IMG/VR virus record: IMGVR_UViG_3300047476_000041 | Location: 1-20,432 of that record | Length of the DNA: 20,432 bases | Source of the DNA: a virus | Strand: one strand, 5' to 3' | Shown: piece by piece, positions 2,356-14,537 of the stretch | Layout of the letters: each line of letters begins with the position of its first letter | How positions within the stretch are numbered: the first letter of the stretch is position 1 | The notes under the pieces: generated by a model | The model's input: the letters and a program-made list of their open reading frames with translations, nothing else | Databases searched by the model: none | What the model was told of the DNA's origin: nothing | Made by a program: the position numbers and the translations under genes

Positions 2356-2969
2356 ACATCTACCTTTGACTTGAACCACTCAGCGCCGTGAGATACGTAC
2401 ATTGAATTGACATCTTCACCATCTGGTAAATTTACCACAGTCACCGGCAACTCACGGGTAAGTGCATTAGCAAAGTCACGACCTGATGTATCTCCATCTG
2501 CAAAGATAAAGACTCGCTCAAAGTCTGCGAGCAATCTTGTGTAGTGTTTCTTCCACGCATTAGAGCCAGGTACTCCCACTGCTGGGATTCCCACACACTT
2601 AGATAGAGTAATAGTATCTATCTCGCCTTCACATATGGCAATGTAATTGCCAGCACGTTCTATATCTAGCACGTTATACATCTTGGTATCTGACCCAGGC
2701 ATACCCATATACTTAGGCTCTACCGCTGGGTTGAGTGAGCGGAATCTGATATCTACCACACCAGTCTTAGTGATGTAAGGGATAGCAAGGCGACCTGCGT
2801 ACTGCTCGTGACCTACCTCAGGTTCCGTAACTACGCCGAGCCAAGCCTGACGTGCTACTTCCGCTGTGACTCCTCTGTTTTCTAGGTAATCTTGCGCCTG
2901 ATGAATACTCGCTGCGTACTTTTTTGCTGCTCGTCCCAGTAATTCCTTCTGCGATACGCTTTGCTTCAC
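2352..2969 (-). CDS. DnaG-like primase, TOPRIM-domain part (split gene)
   Basis: A 205-aa frame carrying the catalytic half of a bacterial/phage primase. AICEGEID (111-118) is the TOPRIM glutamate motif (E114 or E116) and FADGDTSG (156-163) is the DxD motif (D158, D160). A separate start is possible: GTG at 2967-2969 with GAGGGGG about nine bases upstream. However, the zinc-finger half lies just upstream in another frame and the two overlap for 152 bases. Reading the joined product with loss of one A in an A6 run (2920-2925) gives a natural 281-aa primase with SKKYAAS across the joint. So this may be the second half of one protein made by +1 frameshifting or transcript slippage, a true two-gene primase, or a sequencing indel. 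The gene ends four bases into the next gene. Confidence 0.85.
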   Translation of the reverse strand: MKQSVSQKELLGRAAKKYAASIHQAQDYLENRGVTAEVARQAWLGVVTEPEVGHEQYAGRLAIPYITKTGVVDIRFRSLNPAVEPKYMGMPGSDTKMYNVLDIERAGNYIAICEGEIDTITLSKCVGIPAVGVPGSNAWKKHYTRLLADFERVFIFADGDTSGRDFANALTRELPVTVVNLPDGEDVNSMYVSHGAEWFKSKVDV

Positions 2970-3198
2970 GTATATCTACCCCCTCTTGCTGACATATGAG
3001 TTGCAAACTATTTCCTTGTACTCCACAGGCGAAGCAGATGAAGATGTTCTTGTCCAAGTTCGCCGTACCACTCTGGTGTGAGTCACCGTGGAAGGGACAC
3101 CGTAAGTTAATCTGTCCGTGGTCAGAACGAAGGCTGGCTCCGTAGTGTTCAAGGATTGCTTTGACTGAAGGTAGGTCGTTGTCAATTGCTCTCACCAT
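2818..3198 (-). CDS. DnaG-like primase, zinc-binding N-terminal part (split gene)
   Basis: ATG at 3196-3198, overlapping the upstream nuclease gene by 17 bases, with AAGGCAGG just before it. Residues 34-58 form a CHC2 zinc finger: C34-P-F-H37 and C55-F-A-C58, with NIFICFACGVQGN typical of DnaG and phage primases; this domain helps select the priming site. Sequence up to about residue 93 (AKRIAEGITGTSSKK) looks natural. After the two AAA lysine codons the frame continues to 2818 with a Ser/Arg/Gly-rich tail that looks like out-of-frame reading of the TOPRIM gene. The likely functional protein crosses into the next frame at that point. If no shift occurs, this would be a free 126-aa zinc-finger protein. 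Confidence 0.8.
   Translation of the reverse strand: MVRAIDNDLPSVKAILEHYGASLRSDHGQINLRCPFHGDSHQSGTANLDKNIFICFACGVQGNSLQLICQQEGVDIREAKRIAEGITGTSSKKVRSEYSSGARLPRKQRSHSGSSTSGLARRSYGT
2919..2926 (-). other. Putative slip or indel site in the primase gene (A6 run)
   Basis: The minus strand reads C-AAAAAA-G here (A6 at 2925-2920), with two AAA codons in the upstream primase frame. The downstream frame is +1 relative to it. A tRNA-Lys could re-pair on AAA or AAG after a one-base slip, or a polymerase could drop one A. A one-base homopolymer sequencing error would look the same. Confidence 0.4.
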
Positions 3199-4735: not shown

Positions 4736-5149
4736 TTAGTTCGCTGGTGCGCACTGGTCCGCGCCCTGCGGTTGGGTGCAAACCCACATTGAGTAAGGCT
4801 TGCCGTTCTTCTTGCTGACTCCGCTCAAGTGCTTTCTTGGACCGTGGATGCACGTAGGAGCCGACTGTTGCGGTGGGGTCGCCATTGGTGCCCCAGCGGA
4901 TACTGGTGCTGCCTGGGTTGTTGGTGATGTAGCCCAAGGCGGAGTGTCTGTAGCAGAAGCGTTCGTCGATAAAGGGGCTGCGTTATACGCGGCACCGATT
5001 ACCTTCTGAGTTGATACTGCTTGACCTGATACCTCAGCGATACCTTCAAGCAATACTGATAGTTCTTCCACGCTGTTAGCGCGGACGTTGATGAGGTCGC
5101 CAGATGGAGATTTGAAACTCCACTGTACCTTCCAGTCTTCGTTAGCCAT
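4736..5149 (-). CDS. Two-domain protein with C-terminal zinc ribbon, 137 aa
   Basis: ATG at 5147-5149 overlaps the nuclease stop by one base (TAATG). Residues 1-55 form a small compact domain (EDWKVQWSFKSPSGDLINVR then VEELSVLLEGI). Residues 56-97 are a flexible Ala/Pro/Thr/Ser linker. The tail has C100-x-H102 and C124-x8-C133, with basic and aromatic residues between (RKHLSG, KKNGKPYSMWVC). This looks like a one-metal zinc ribbon that could bind nucleic acid. Position between the RecB-like nuclease and helicase suggests a recombination or replication accessory, perhaps a single-strand-binding or nuclease-loading protein. No named family is recognised. Confidence 0.65.
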   Translation of the reverse strand: MANEDWKVQWSFKSPSGDLINVRANSVEELSVLLEGIAEVSGQAVSTQKVIGAAYNAAPLSTNASATDTPPWATSPTTQAAPVSAGAPMATPPQQSAPTCIHGPRKHLSGVSKKNGKPYSMWVCTQPQGADQCAPAN

Positions 5150-5763
5150 TATTTATTTTCCTTTGTGAATTGGCAATGCTGCTTTACTCCGCAGATATTG
5201 CACGATTGTATGTTCGGTAGAAATATACCAGACTTCCGAGCCTTATCAAAGCCCGCCACCATATACTCCAGTGAGTCTAGTGTGTATCTACTTAGGTCAA
5301 TCATCTCTCCTGTCCCCGATTCACGAGACATCCAGTAGTTGCCTAGATTGACTGATGCGCCTGTCATCATTTCGATTCCTATTTTATAGAAACCCAACTG
5401 AAGGTCAGATGTTGGTCGCCGTGCGCTGGTCTTGAGGTCGACAATCACAAGTTGCCCATTAACCTCAAACACACGGTCGATAAACATTTTGACTTTAACG
5501 CCTGCGATGATTGGATTTAGTTCCAACTCAATGGCTCTGGCACCCTGAGGTGTGGTCCATATCTTCCAATCAGGATTGTTCTTCCTCCACTTGATGTAGT
5601 TATCTACCCAAATGGAGCCGTTCTTGTACCACCACTCGCCATCCTCTTTGTTAGGATTTTCTTTGGTGGCTCGCCCTGCCCGTCTTGCAGTGGCGAAATC
5701 TAGTCCATCAGTTTCCTGTAGCCAAGCCTTGTGCCACAGTTCATTAGTCGTTGTCGCGGTCAT
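5149..5763 (-). CDS. RecB/Cas4-like PD-(D/E)XK exonuclease, catalytic part (split gene)
   Basis: A 204-aa frame from ATG (5761-5763). Active-site motifs are in the family order: FIDRVFEV (94-101, D96), VIVDLKTS (106-113, D109 and K111) and LQLGFYKIG (121-129, the Q-x3-Y motif). The C-terminus has C188-x2-C191-x5-C197, the last three cysteines of a Cas4/AddB-type Fe-S cluster. The N-terminal helix with the first cysteine is missing here and lies in the overlapping upstream frame (5744-5911). GGAG five bases before the ATG would allow separate initiation; a +1 shift at the end of the upstream frame would give one 253-aa protein. The likely role is 5'-3' or single-strand end processing in recombination or replication. 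Confidence 0.8.
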   Translation of the reverse strand: MTATTTNELWHKAWLQETDGLDFATARRAGRATKENPNKEDGEWWYKNGSIWVDNYIKWRKNNPDWKIWTTPQGARAIELELNPIIAGVKVKMFIDRVFEVNGQLVIVDLKTSARRPTSDLQLGFYKIGIEMMTGASVNLGNYWMSRESGTGEMIDLSRYTLDSLEYMVAGFDKARKSGIFLPNIQSCNICGVKQHCQFTKENK

Positions 5764-5911
5764 ATAACTCCGTCGCTAGGTGAAATGCTCGTCCTCCTGC
5801 TGACCAGATGGATGGTTCCTCTGGTACTTGCAATAGCCTACCGAGGTAGTACTGATATCCGCAACTCAAGTAGGTTGTGAATGATGAATATGAGATGTGC
5901 TCAGGGAGCAC
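5744..5911 (-). CDS. RecB/Cas4-like nuclease, N-terminal part (split gene)
   Basis: This short frame encodes LPEHISYSSFTTYLSCGYQ followed by YYLGRLLQVPEEP and WSAGGRAFHLATELYDRDND before TAA. This is the classic N-terminus of PD-(D/E)XK_1 nucleases: S-x-S-x-x-x-x-Y-x-x-C, then the GG-x-x-x-H helix in which the His is catalytic. The single Cys is the expected first ligand of the Fe-S cluster whose other three ligands are in the following frame. The start is uncertain: GTG at 5909-5911 with AGAAGAG close upstream is preferred; TTG at 5930-5932 is possible and would overlap the upstream gene. The last 20 bases overlap the catalytic frame, which is +1 relative to this one. Confidence 0.7.
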   Translation of the reverse strand: MLPEHISYSSFTTYLSCGYQYYLGRLLQVPEEPSIWSAGGRAFHLATELYDRDND

Positions 5912-5924
5912 GTACTCTTCTAAC

Positions 5925-6092
5925 TTAATCAAGGTTATCCTCAACAAAGTCAGTGAGGTCTTCAAGGTCAGCACGAATCTGTGCGAGGTCGTGCTCGATA
6001 AGAATTATCAGGCTATCTAGGTCACTGACCCAATCGACTACTGCTCGCTGGGTTAGTTGCTGCATCTTGCGTCGCTTAATAAACTTAAACAT
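5925..6092 (-). CDS. Small helical protein, 55 aa, first gene of the early operon
   Basis: ATG at 6090-6092 is preceded by GGAGG five bases upstream, one of the best ribosome binding sites in the window, and the frame ends in TAA at 5925-5927. The product has a basic start (MFKFIKRRKMQQLTQR) and an acidic helical remainder (DLDSLIILIEHDLAQIRADL, then EDLTDFVEDNLD) with a heptad-like leucine/isoleucine spacing, so a coiled coil is likely. It is the first gene after the non-coding region and the nuclease follows within 14 bases. No family is recognised. Confidence 0.65.
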   Translation of the reverse strand: MFKFIKRRKMQQLTQRAVVDWVSDLDSLIILIEHDLAQIRADLEDLTDFVEDNLD

Positions 6093-11860: not shown

Positions 11861-13231
11861 TTATACCACCGGGTATCTAATAATTACAATTCCTGAACCG
11901 CCATTGCCAGCAGTAGCGTTTCTGGTTGCTCCACCGCCACCTCCGACATTTGCGAAACCATTACTTCCGCCTCCGGCACCACCTCCACCTGCGCCGCCAA
12001 ATCCGTTGGTTCCGTTTCCGCGACCACCGCCGCCACCTGCATAGTAATTGCTACTACCAGTGCCAGTTGCTGATGCAAGTGCTGTGATTTGTACGCCATT
12101 TCCACCATCACCAGCAGATGATGTTGTTCCATTTGCGCCGGCCTGTCCAGCACCACCACCGCCACCGCCTGTGTAAATGACACCACCGCTACCAGAACCT
12201 CCTGCGTAGCCTTGTCCAACGACCCTTGCTCCACCAGCAGCGCCATTAGCACCACCGCCACCTGAGCCGCCATCTGCACCGCTGTAATTATTACCACCAG
12301 GGTGGCCACCGCCACCACCGCCACCAGTGGATGTAATTGTAGAAAATACGCTATCGCTACCGTTTGTTCCTCTATTAGCACCAGCGGTACTTCCTGCTCC
12401 ACCACTACCTACGGTGACAGTATAAGAAGTATTTGCGGTTACAGATATGGCAGACTCTAATGTTCCACCACCGCCGGTTGCAGTTACAGTTGAACGAAGA
12501 CCGCCCGCTCCACCACCACCTGCTCCTCGGCTATCAGTATAGGTATCAGTTCCACCGCCACCGCCACCTGCAACTACAAGGTAGTCACAAGTTAGATTCA
12601 ATTGTGGTCTAAATACGCTAGTAGAAAGAAACGCGTGATACCAGTATGTGCCATCAGTCTTGATGATGTCTCCACCGTCAGCCTTAGGTGCTAGTGCTGG
12701 AGTGGTATTGACATTGGCTATGCCGTAGAGTGCAAATGATGAGCCTGCTAAATAAGATGAACTATCTTCTGTTGCAATAGTGATTGATGTAATAGCAGAA
12801 TTGCTGCTCCATAAATTAGCAGCCATTTGCATTTGATTTGTTGAAGCATTGTTTTCTGAAATTCCATCACCACTAGATGACTTATAAGTAGATGTAGATG
12901 CATAGTTTGGAATATAAATTTCAGAACTTCCAAACGTGCTTGCAGTCTGACCGCTACTACTGGCCATACCACCATATTGAATGGTGCCACCAGTCGAACC
13001 AGTAGGTCCATTACCTTGACCATATATGCGTCTTGTGGAAAGATTGGTTGTCACTCCATTGTAGTAGTAAATAACTCCAGAACCATAACCACTGCTATTA
13101 TCGGTTCTTGCGCTGACAACAATCTTCAAATCAGTATAACCAGTTTGAGGGATTGAGTCAAAGGTGACAGAAGAAGCAGATGCAGTTAAAGTAATTCTAC
13201 GAAGTAGAACGTGATTTGCTGTCGTTGCCAT
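11861..13231 (-). CDS. Tail fibre with glycine-rich tip, paralogue A, 456 aa
   Basis: ATG at 13229-13231 with AAGGAGAAG upstream. Residues 1-172 form a beta-sandwich-like domain that begins with VTFDSIPQTGYTDLKIVVS and ends SSFALYGIA; it recurs in the two upstream genes. A joint (TDGTYWYHAF, 192-201) and CDYLVVAGGGGGG (215-227) lead into more than 200 residues with long Gly runs, ending GGSGIVIIRYPVV. The AGGGGGG entry and GIVIIRYP exit are signatures of phage glycine-rich fibre tips, where Gly strands pack as polyglycine II helices and exposed loops bind the host. The hypervariable loops between Gly runs would set host range. Confidence 0.8.
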   Translation of the reverse strand: MATTANHVLLRRITLTASASSVTFDSIPQTGYTDLKIVVSARTDNSSGYGSGVIYYYNGVTTNLSTRRIYGQGNGPTGSTGGTIQYGGMASSSGQTASTFGSSEIYIPNYASTSTYKSSSGDGISENNASTNQMQMAANLWSSNSAITSITIATEDSSSYLAGSSFALYGIANVNTTPALAPKADGGDIIKTDGTYWYHAFLSTSVFRPQLNLTCDYLVVAGGGGGGTDTYTDSRGAGGGGAGGLRSTVTATGGGGTLESAISVTANTSYTVTVGSGGAGSTAGANRGTNGSDSVFSTITSTGGGGGGGHPGGNNYSGADGGSGGGGANGAAGGARVVGQGYAGGSGSGGVIYTGGGGGGAGQAGANGTTSSAGDGGNGVQITALASATGTGSSNYYAGGGGGRGNGTNGFGGAGGGGAGGGSNGFANVGGGGGATRNATAGNGGSGIVIIRYPVV

Positions 13232-13241
13232 TTACTTCTCC

Positions 13242-14537
13242 TTACTTAGGGTATCTAATAATTAGGATTCCTGATGCGCCAGAACTGCTGACTCCGGTAG
13301 AGCCACCACCTCCACCACCGCCTCCTGTATAAGGTACGGCTGCTGTTGCGGATACAGTTGCGCCAGCGCCATTGGCTCCACCACCTGCTCCGCCAGTTCC
13401 ACCAGTACCTGCGTAAGTACCGCCTCCGCCTCCGCCAGCGTAGTAACCATTGGAGCCAGTATTAGTTGCAGTAGCCCAAGAGGACCAAGTATTTAATCCA
13501 GCGCCACCAGCGCCACCTGCAGATTGCGTGCTAGATGGTTGTCCAGCGGCTCCTGCGCCACCACCGCCACCGTGGTTGTAGGTTCCATAAGAAATACCGC
13601 CACCACCTGCATTACCGTAACCAGTTGCACCGCCGGTGTTTCCTTGGGTCGCTGAACCTCCTGCAGCGCCTTCACCGCCACCACCGCCAGAACCACCGGA
13701 ACCTGCTGCTTGGGCAGAGTTGTTTCCGTAACCGCCACCATTTGACGTAATGCCTACAAATGTTGAGTTGCTTCCGTTGCTAAAACTACCGCCTGCGCCT
13801 CCTGCACCGATAGTGCAAGAATAACTGCCAGCAGTAATCGACTTACCGGAAAGGTATGAAAGGCCACCGGCTCCTCCACCTCCACCTGAAGCACCATTAC
13901 CGCTACCTCCACCTGCTATTAGCAATATATCGGCAGTAATAGAATCATTAGCAATGAAAGTTCCAGAGTGCTTAAATGTATGATACCAATATGTAGAATC
14001 AGAAGTTACATATCCACCAGATGCTTTTGTAGATGAGTCGCTAGTCCAGGCTGCAATTCCATACAAGGTAAAGGTTGAGCCGATAGCAAAATTATTAGTA
14101 CCGTCGGCGGATACAGTTATAGAACTAATTGCATTTGTATTACGCCACAATCCAGCAATTGCAGATACTTCTCTTTCTGCATTATTATTTCTAGCCAAAC
14201 AAGTTTTATTTGTTGTTGTATTGGAATAATTCATTATGGAAACTATATTTGTAATAGTATTTCCGCTGGTTGCAGAACCAGAATAATCTATATAAATTTT
14301 ATTTCCGTTAGAGTCTCTGCTGGAGCCAGCAGTTGTACCATTGCCCCATACGCCAGTATCGGAATACAAGCCGCTAGTAGTATCTCCATTATAATTTAAA
14401 GTCATACCAATTTGACCAGTTGCTCTTGCAACTAAAACTAAATCAGTATATGCTTGTGAAATAGAAGTAAAGGTAACAGAAGATACAGCACTGGTTACTG
14501 TTTTTATATCAAGCGCTACGTATGTATTAGTTGCCAT
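13242..14537 (-). CDS. Tail fibre with glycine-rich tip, paralogue B, 431 aa
   Basis: ATG at 14535-14537 overlaps the upstream TAA (TAATG). Architecture matches paralogue A: an N-terminal beta domain (1-161; VTFTSISQAYTDLVLVARA near the start, GSTFTLYGIA at the end), the joint DSTYWYHTFK (180-189), ILLIAGGGSGNG, about 200 Gly-rich residues and ASGILIIRYPK. The two tips differ strongly in loop sequence although entry and exit are alike. The N-terminal domain DNA looks more A/T-rich than the tip, which suggests separate histories of the two modules. Both paralogues may be on the virion together or be alternative fibres. Confidence 0.8.
   Translation of the reverse strand: MATNTYVALDIKTVTSAVSSVTFTSISQAYTDLVLVARATGQIGMTLNYNGDTTSGLYSDTGVWGNGTTAGSSRDSNGNKIYIDYSGSATSGNTITNIVSIMNYSNTTTNKTCLARNNNAEREVSAIAGLWRNTNAISSITVSADGTNNFAIGSTFTLYGIAAWTSDSSTKASGGYVTSDSTYWYHTFKHSGTFIANDSITADILLIAGGGSGNGASGGGGGAGGLSYLSGKSITAGSYSCTIGAGGAGGSFSNGSNSTFVGITSNGGGYGNNSAQAAGSGGSGGGGGEGAAGGSATQGNTGGATGYGNAGGGGISYGTYNHGGGGGAGAAGQPSSTQSAGGAGGAGLNTWSSWATATNTGSNGYYAGGGGGGTYAGTGGTGGAGGGANGAGATVSATAAVPYTGGGGGGGGSTGVSSSGASGILIIRYPK

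Follow-up and report, generated by a model that had tools for sequence, protein, structure and literature searches.

A Cas4/AddB-Type Nuclease Gene Split between Two Neighboring Reading Frames in a Group of Freshwater Phages

The Nuclease Locus and Its Two Frames

The window analyzed here is the whole 20,432-nt virus record IMGVR_UViG_3300047476_000041 (positions 1 to 20,432). On its minus strand lies a putative nuclease of the Cas4/AddB type (PD-(D/E)XK superfamily), written as two overlapping frames, an N half and a C half (Table 1). The surroundings are those of a replication/recombination operon, with a DnaB-like helicase, a RusA-like resolvase, a primase, and an L5 gp49-like protein. The N half contains the first cysteine, in TYLSCGY, followed by the GGxxxH motif as GGRAFH, and ends in GAC-AAC-GAC-TAA at 5744. 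FID, VDLKT, QLGFY, and CNICGVKQHC are found in the C half and correspond to the D, DxK, QxxxY, and C-x2-C-x5-C motifs. The split divides the cysteines, leaving one on the N half and three on the C half.

The two halves cover complementary stretches of one Pfam family, PF12705, with the N half matching positions 1-50 of 247 (2e-6) and the C half positions 83-247 of 247 (1.7e-7), both above the Pfam cut-off. Matches to phage exonuclease PHROGs were obtained for the N half (phrog_69, 7e-8) as well as for the C half (phrog_1870, 1.6e-41). The original prediction had described two frames sharing one Fe-S-type nuclease, with the motifs distributed as above and a +1 offset with GGAG and ATG at the junction, and in these respects it is borne out by the sequence. 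The extent it had given, 5149-5911, is correct at the end of the C half; the N half most likely begins just beyond 5911, at TTG 5932 (MIKLEEY...), since ATG ATT AAA stands at this place in most relatives. A 55-aa ORF of coiled-coil-like sequence (5925-6092, minus strand) overlaps the N-half start; a small gene resembling it is found at this position in relatives, with the stop-start overlap GATGATTAA.

Table 1. Features of the nuclease locus in the window
Feature	Position	Strand	Remarks
Nuclease N half	5744..5932	-	62 aa from the probable TTG start; open frame extends to 5974
Nuclease C half	5149..5763	-	204 aa; ATG start at 5763; +1 relative to the N-half frame
Overlap, C-half ATG to N-half TAA	5744..5763	-	20 nt
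GGAG, possible ribosome binding site	5768..5771	-	4 nt upstream of the C-half ATG; read in the sequence
N-half cysteine codon (TYLSCGY), presumed first cluster ligand	5861..5863	-	Cys in 148/148 split sequences covering the position
GGRAFH (GG-x3-H motif), N half	5780..5797	-	His in 153/153 split sequences covering the position
Catalytic Asp (FIDR, residue 96) and D-x-K (VDLKT, residues 109-111), C half	5431..5478	-	154/154, also A6
C-x2-C-x5-C, C half (residues 188, 191, and 197), presumed ligands 2-4	5173..5202	-	Each Cys in 154/154

Distribution and Origin of the Split

A first scan of viral contigs returned 80 near relatives, which are 77-94% identical over the C half. None of the 79 that hold both halves is continuous. 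The +1 offset was observed in 77 of these 79, a count that includes L074, where the +1 reading spans an inserted gene; in L038 and L040, the frames of the halves agree only because an inserted stretch separates them. With three further scans, aimed at other members of the group and at outgroups, the set grew to 198 distinct sequence pairs. The same gap, for which a search of related phage contigs had been suggested, recurs as a split of some kind in 181 of them: 144 at +1, 23 at +2, and 14 in which the halves are separated by whole genes. The remaining 17 sequences are continuous: L207 and 16 outgroup members, whose identity to the C half is 28-42%; four of the outgroup members are annotated actinophages. 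The N half was absent in only five loci, and in each of them the contig ends at most 51 nt from the C half. Relatives were not found in bacterial genomes, and a query with the C part from the Cutibacterium phage found no viral contigs.

The arrangement at the junction differs between the groups. In the +1 group, the start of the C half precedes the last base of the N-half stop by 4-35 nt in most sequences. Members of the +2 group (55-60% identical) usually have AAGGAG and then a GTG that overlaps the N-half TGA. Inserts occur in several separate branches (L038, L074/L088/L093, L090, L174, the L200 group, L205, and L243). That of L038 measures 225 nt and holds a 71-aa ORF, those of L074, L088, and L093 measure 329-353 nt with an ORF of 107-114 aa, and the longest, in L090, extends over 991 nt with two ORFs of 107 and 218 aa. 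Like ordinary neighboring genes, the inserted ORFs have a start that overlaps the N-half stop and an end at or beside the C-half start; in L074, the displaced C half begins with GTG behind AAGGAG. Small genes are thus placed exactly between the halves at L090:1524-2496, L074:3694-4023, and L088:2152-2496; two of them are lysine-rich with a coiled-coil-like end, and a similar ORF is present in L205. The best PHROG matches of the inserted ORFs are 0.006 or weaker, including one weak match (0.064) annotated as an endonuclease. No homing endonuclease was recognized in the five inserted ORFs scanned against Pfam and PHROG, and on this account the locus was not counted among the homing-endonuclease genes-in-pieces. 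A self-splicing intron between the halves was rejected, since neither the window nor eight insert-bearing loci gave an Rfam match.

When 42 C halves were placed in a maximum-likelihood tree, all split sequences were separated from the continuous outgroups by one branch (support 96/95), which indicates a single origin of the split clade. Because several of the outgroup branches are long and long-branch joining was warned of, the relative positions of the outgroups should not be relied on. L207 sits inside the clade of split sequences (support 100/99). Over 762 nt, L207 (1474-2232) and L248 (50-824) are identical except for 16 nt missing from L207 at the junction, a deletion that joins its halves into one 253-aa frame. 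L248 is split, as are the other relatives found alongside L207. A single homologue of 253 aa, which the original prediction had proposed looking for, does exist in L207, but because this sequence differs from L248 by the deletion only, it represents a deletion allele or an assembly fault and not the ancestral state. An evolved re-fusion was also considered for L207 and set aside, as the case consists of a single contig with one 16-nt deletion relative to L248 and could reflect an uncommon allele or faulty assembly. The cut falls in a loop whose length varies in the continuous outgroups as well, where the spacing between the matched parts ranges from 24 to 156 nt; in the L207 model it lies between helices 42-56 and 60-68. 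Two matches with different annotations had raised the possibility that the gene was split independently in Mycobacterium phage Phlei; it is one 270-aa CDS there, and this reading was rejected.

The split is also present in OX376641.1 (LanE43-AprF5; Planktophila phage LanE43AprF5), with the +1 offset. F5 is a lytic phage isolated on Ca. Planktophila LanE-43 (PMC10202952). The same matches were obtained in OX376640.1, taken as the sister isolate E7. Since a Ca. Planktophila phage carries the split, the phage of the window likely infects related freshwater Actinobacteria.

Assembly of the Two Halves and Alternative Readings

Three explanations had been put forward in the original prediction, a programmed shift, a two-subunit nuclease, and a sequencing indel, and the evidence favors the second. 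It is considered quite probable that fission of the gene has given rise to a two-polypeptide nuclease, whose halves assemble into one enzyme and share an Fe-S staple in a 1+3 manner. According to this model, a Cas4/AddB-type PD-(D/E)XK exonuclease gene would have been split once, in the ancestor of this freshwater phage group, at the loop after the GGxxxH helix, and the two pieces would now be ordinary neighboring genes of the replication operon, each translated separately. Translation of the C half would begin either by reinitiation, at a start overlapping the stop of the N half, or from a Shine-Dalgarno site of its own. Both polypeptides would then assemble into one nuclease, to which the N half would contribute the first cysteine and the GGxxxH helix, and the C half the catalytic sheet and three cysteines, with the cluster (presumably [4Fe-4S]) holding the two chains together. 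A more specific proposal, that two separately translated phage proteins supply the ligands 1+3 and that insertion of the cluster is the step that both joins and activates the nuclease, stands evenly balanced between acceptance and rejection.

The fold was predicted for the naturally joined L207 protein, with an alignment built from single halves and continuous outgroups of viral contigs. The model has a mean pLDDT of 93.7 and a pTM of 0.89. Comparison of its residues 2-253 with solved structures gave AdnA (Z 16.5), ACE1, an Argonaute-associated Cas4 protein (15.7), and AddB (14.2), followed by the zinc-bearing 3l0a (13.9), Cas4 (12.9), and Dna2 (12.0); a Foldseek search was also run. From this one contig with its 16-nt deletion, the joined halves are confidently predicted to form the full AdnA/AddB/Cas4-like fold. 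The sequence features of a PF12705-type iron-staple nuclease are found at the locus, namely the profile, the catalytic D, D-x-K, the Q/Y motif, the N-terminal His, and four Cys (on two ORFs), and the fold is predicted for the joined L207 allele. Conservation points in the same direction: besides the N-half residues listed in Table 1, the C-half D89, D102, K104, Q115, and Y119 (numbering from ELWHKAW) and the three cysteines are invariant in 154/154. Four cysteines are present in all members of the Cas4 family (PMC5704561). In Cas4, each Cys-to-Ala change yielded insoluble protein, and all four were reported to be needed for solubility (PMC3466216). The view that a single cluster is bound by all four cysteines, and that neither half would therefore work alone, is consistent with the invariance, the predicted fold, and the Cas4 mutants.

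The halves might also be translated separately and no longer form one enzyme, the N half having taken on another role and the C half acting alone or with another partner. This is rather unlikely, even though the assembly is a proposal and the genes can lie up to 991 nt apart, since the four ligands and GGxxxH are invariant, as in the single-chain enzymes, and the C half alone is modeled with low confidence exactly at its cysteines. When the C half of the window was predicted alone, the pLDDT was 82.7 and fell to about 50-58 in the last stretches with the three cysteines, compared with 89 and 87 in the joined model; the alignment was shallower (26 versus 55 rows), so the lower confidence is a hint only.

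A programmed +1 ribosomal frameshift at GAC-TAA-T, which would produce one continuous nuclease, is suggested by the +1 offset and short overlap in 144 sequences and by the presence of GAC-TAA-T in the window. Several properties of the relatives make it improbable. A close relative group is at +2, and one or two other genes stand between the halves in 14 sequences. The stop context varies among relatives (TAA-T, TGA-A, and TAA-C), and many sequences of the +1 group offer just 8 nt of open C frame ahead of the N stop. A start codon is kept at the C half in 181/181 split sequences (158 ATG, 22 GTG, and 1 TTG). As the offset is not fixed within the one clade, genes are inserted, and the downstream frame has its own start, a conserved programmed frameshift, one of the three original explanations, is not supported. 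In the +1 group, a frameshift product may be made in addition to the separate halves. A Shine-Dalgarno-like word stands at the right distance in 22/23 sequences of the +2 group and in 10/14 with inserts. In the +1 group it was seen in 31/116, which is not above background (17% of random positions and 42% of internal ATGs); in this group, the window included, the likelier route is therefore reinitiation where stop and start overlap. The window itself has GGAG ahead of its C-half ATG.

A broken gene, with one or both pieces decaying as remnants, is very improbable. A 62-aa N half alone cannot hold an active site, as such a reading would have it, but the ligands and catalytic residues are invariant, and the N half is never lost where the C half stays. 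Among 1500 pairs of split sequences, the median dN/dS was 0.084 (N half) and 0.123 (C half), figures that are rough because many dS values are near saturation; with dN/dS about 0.1, both halves are under strong purifying selection. An error of sequencing or assembly, with an indel breaking an otherwise intact gene, is practically excluded. Single contigs do differ (L207 continuous, L248 split by an extra 16 nt), but 181 distinct sequences taken from many samples have the same break, as do the isolates F5 and E7.

Relation to Known Nucleases and Split Genes

The closest counterparts of the split gene are the Cas4-like exonucleases of actinophages (PF12705; phrog_1870 and phrog_69), such as Mycobacterium phage Chupacabra gp66, Rhodococcus phage Nancinator gp56, and the Cutibacterium phage CA1NRNZ exonuclease. 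The motifs, their order, and the place near a DnaB-like helicase are alike, but in the four records examined the actinophage exonuclease, 28-42% identical, is one continuous gene. The joined halves match the iron-staple nucleases AddB, AdnA, Cas4, and ACE1 over the full length of the fold (Z 12.9-16.5). In those enzymes the four cysteines are on one chain, whereas here they are on two ORFs. The 1+3 arrangement of the four cysteines has been described for Cas4 and AddB (PMC3466216).

Genes-in-pieces are known from phages, as nrdA-a/nrdA-b of Aeromonas phage Aeh1, whose enzyme is still functional, and nrdJ-a/nrdJ-b of Thermus phage phiYS40 (PMC3653736). As proposed for the nuclease, one enzyme is obtained there from two neighboring genes. 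The nuclease differs in that no homing endonuclease is present at the junction in the loci examined, and in that the cut, which is a fixed trait of an entire phage group, separates the presumed ligands of a single metal cluster. Examples of a cluster coordinated jointly by two polypeptides are the nitrogenase P-cluster, F_X of photosystem I, and the NB cluster of DPOR; unlike the nuclease described here, these are neither nucleases nor recent products of a gene split.

No report of a split phage Cas4-like nuclease was found in the literature searched. The nuclease family and split phage genes are already known. The locus provides a natural, fixed split of a small nuclease through its presumed metal-binding staple, for which continuous relatives, two offsets, inserted genes, and a cultivated phage are all at hand. 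It makes directly testable whether two chains can be held together by an Fe-S staple, and it may supply a Cas4-like nuclease already made in two parts. When such phages are annotated, the N half will be entered as a hypothetical protein and the C half will pass for a truncated exonuclease.

Two further observations were made in the window. The primase is also written as two ORFs, with a zinc finger and a TOPRIM part, at 2352-2969 and 2818-3198 on the minus strand, in a +1 relation and with an overlap of about 150 nt. The same offset was found in 76/76 distinct related loci, and the TOPRIM frame has a start codon (ATG or GTG) at one place in 60/60 aligned sequences. Unlike in the nuclease, the offset and overlap hardly vary. 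The minus strand also carries, at 11861-14537, a pair of long ORFs rich in glycine (456 and 431 aa); their N-terminal parts resemble each other, and they are likely tail-associated paralogues.
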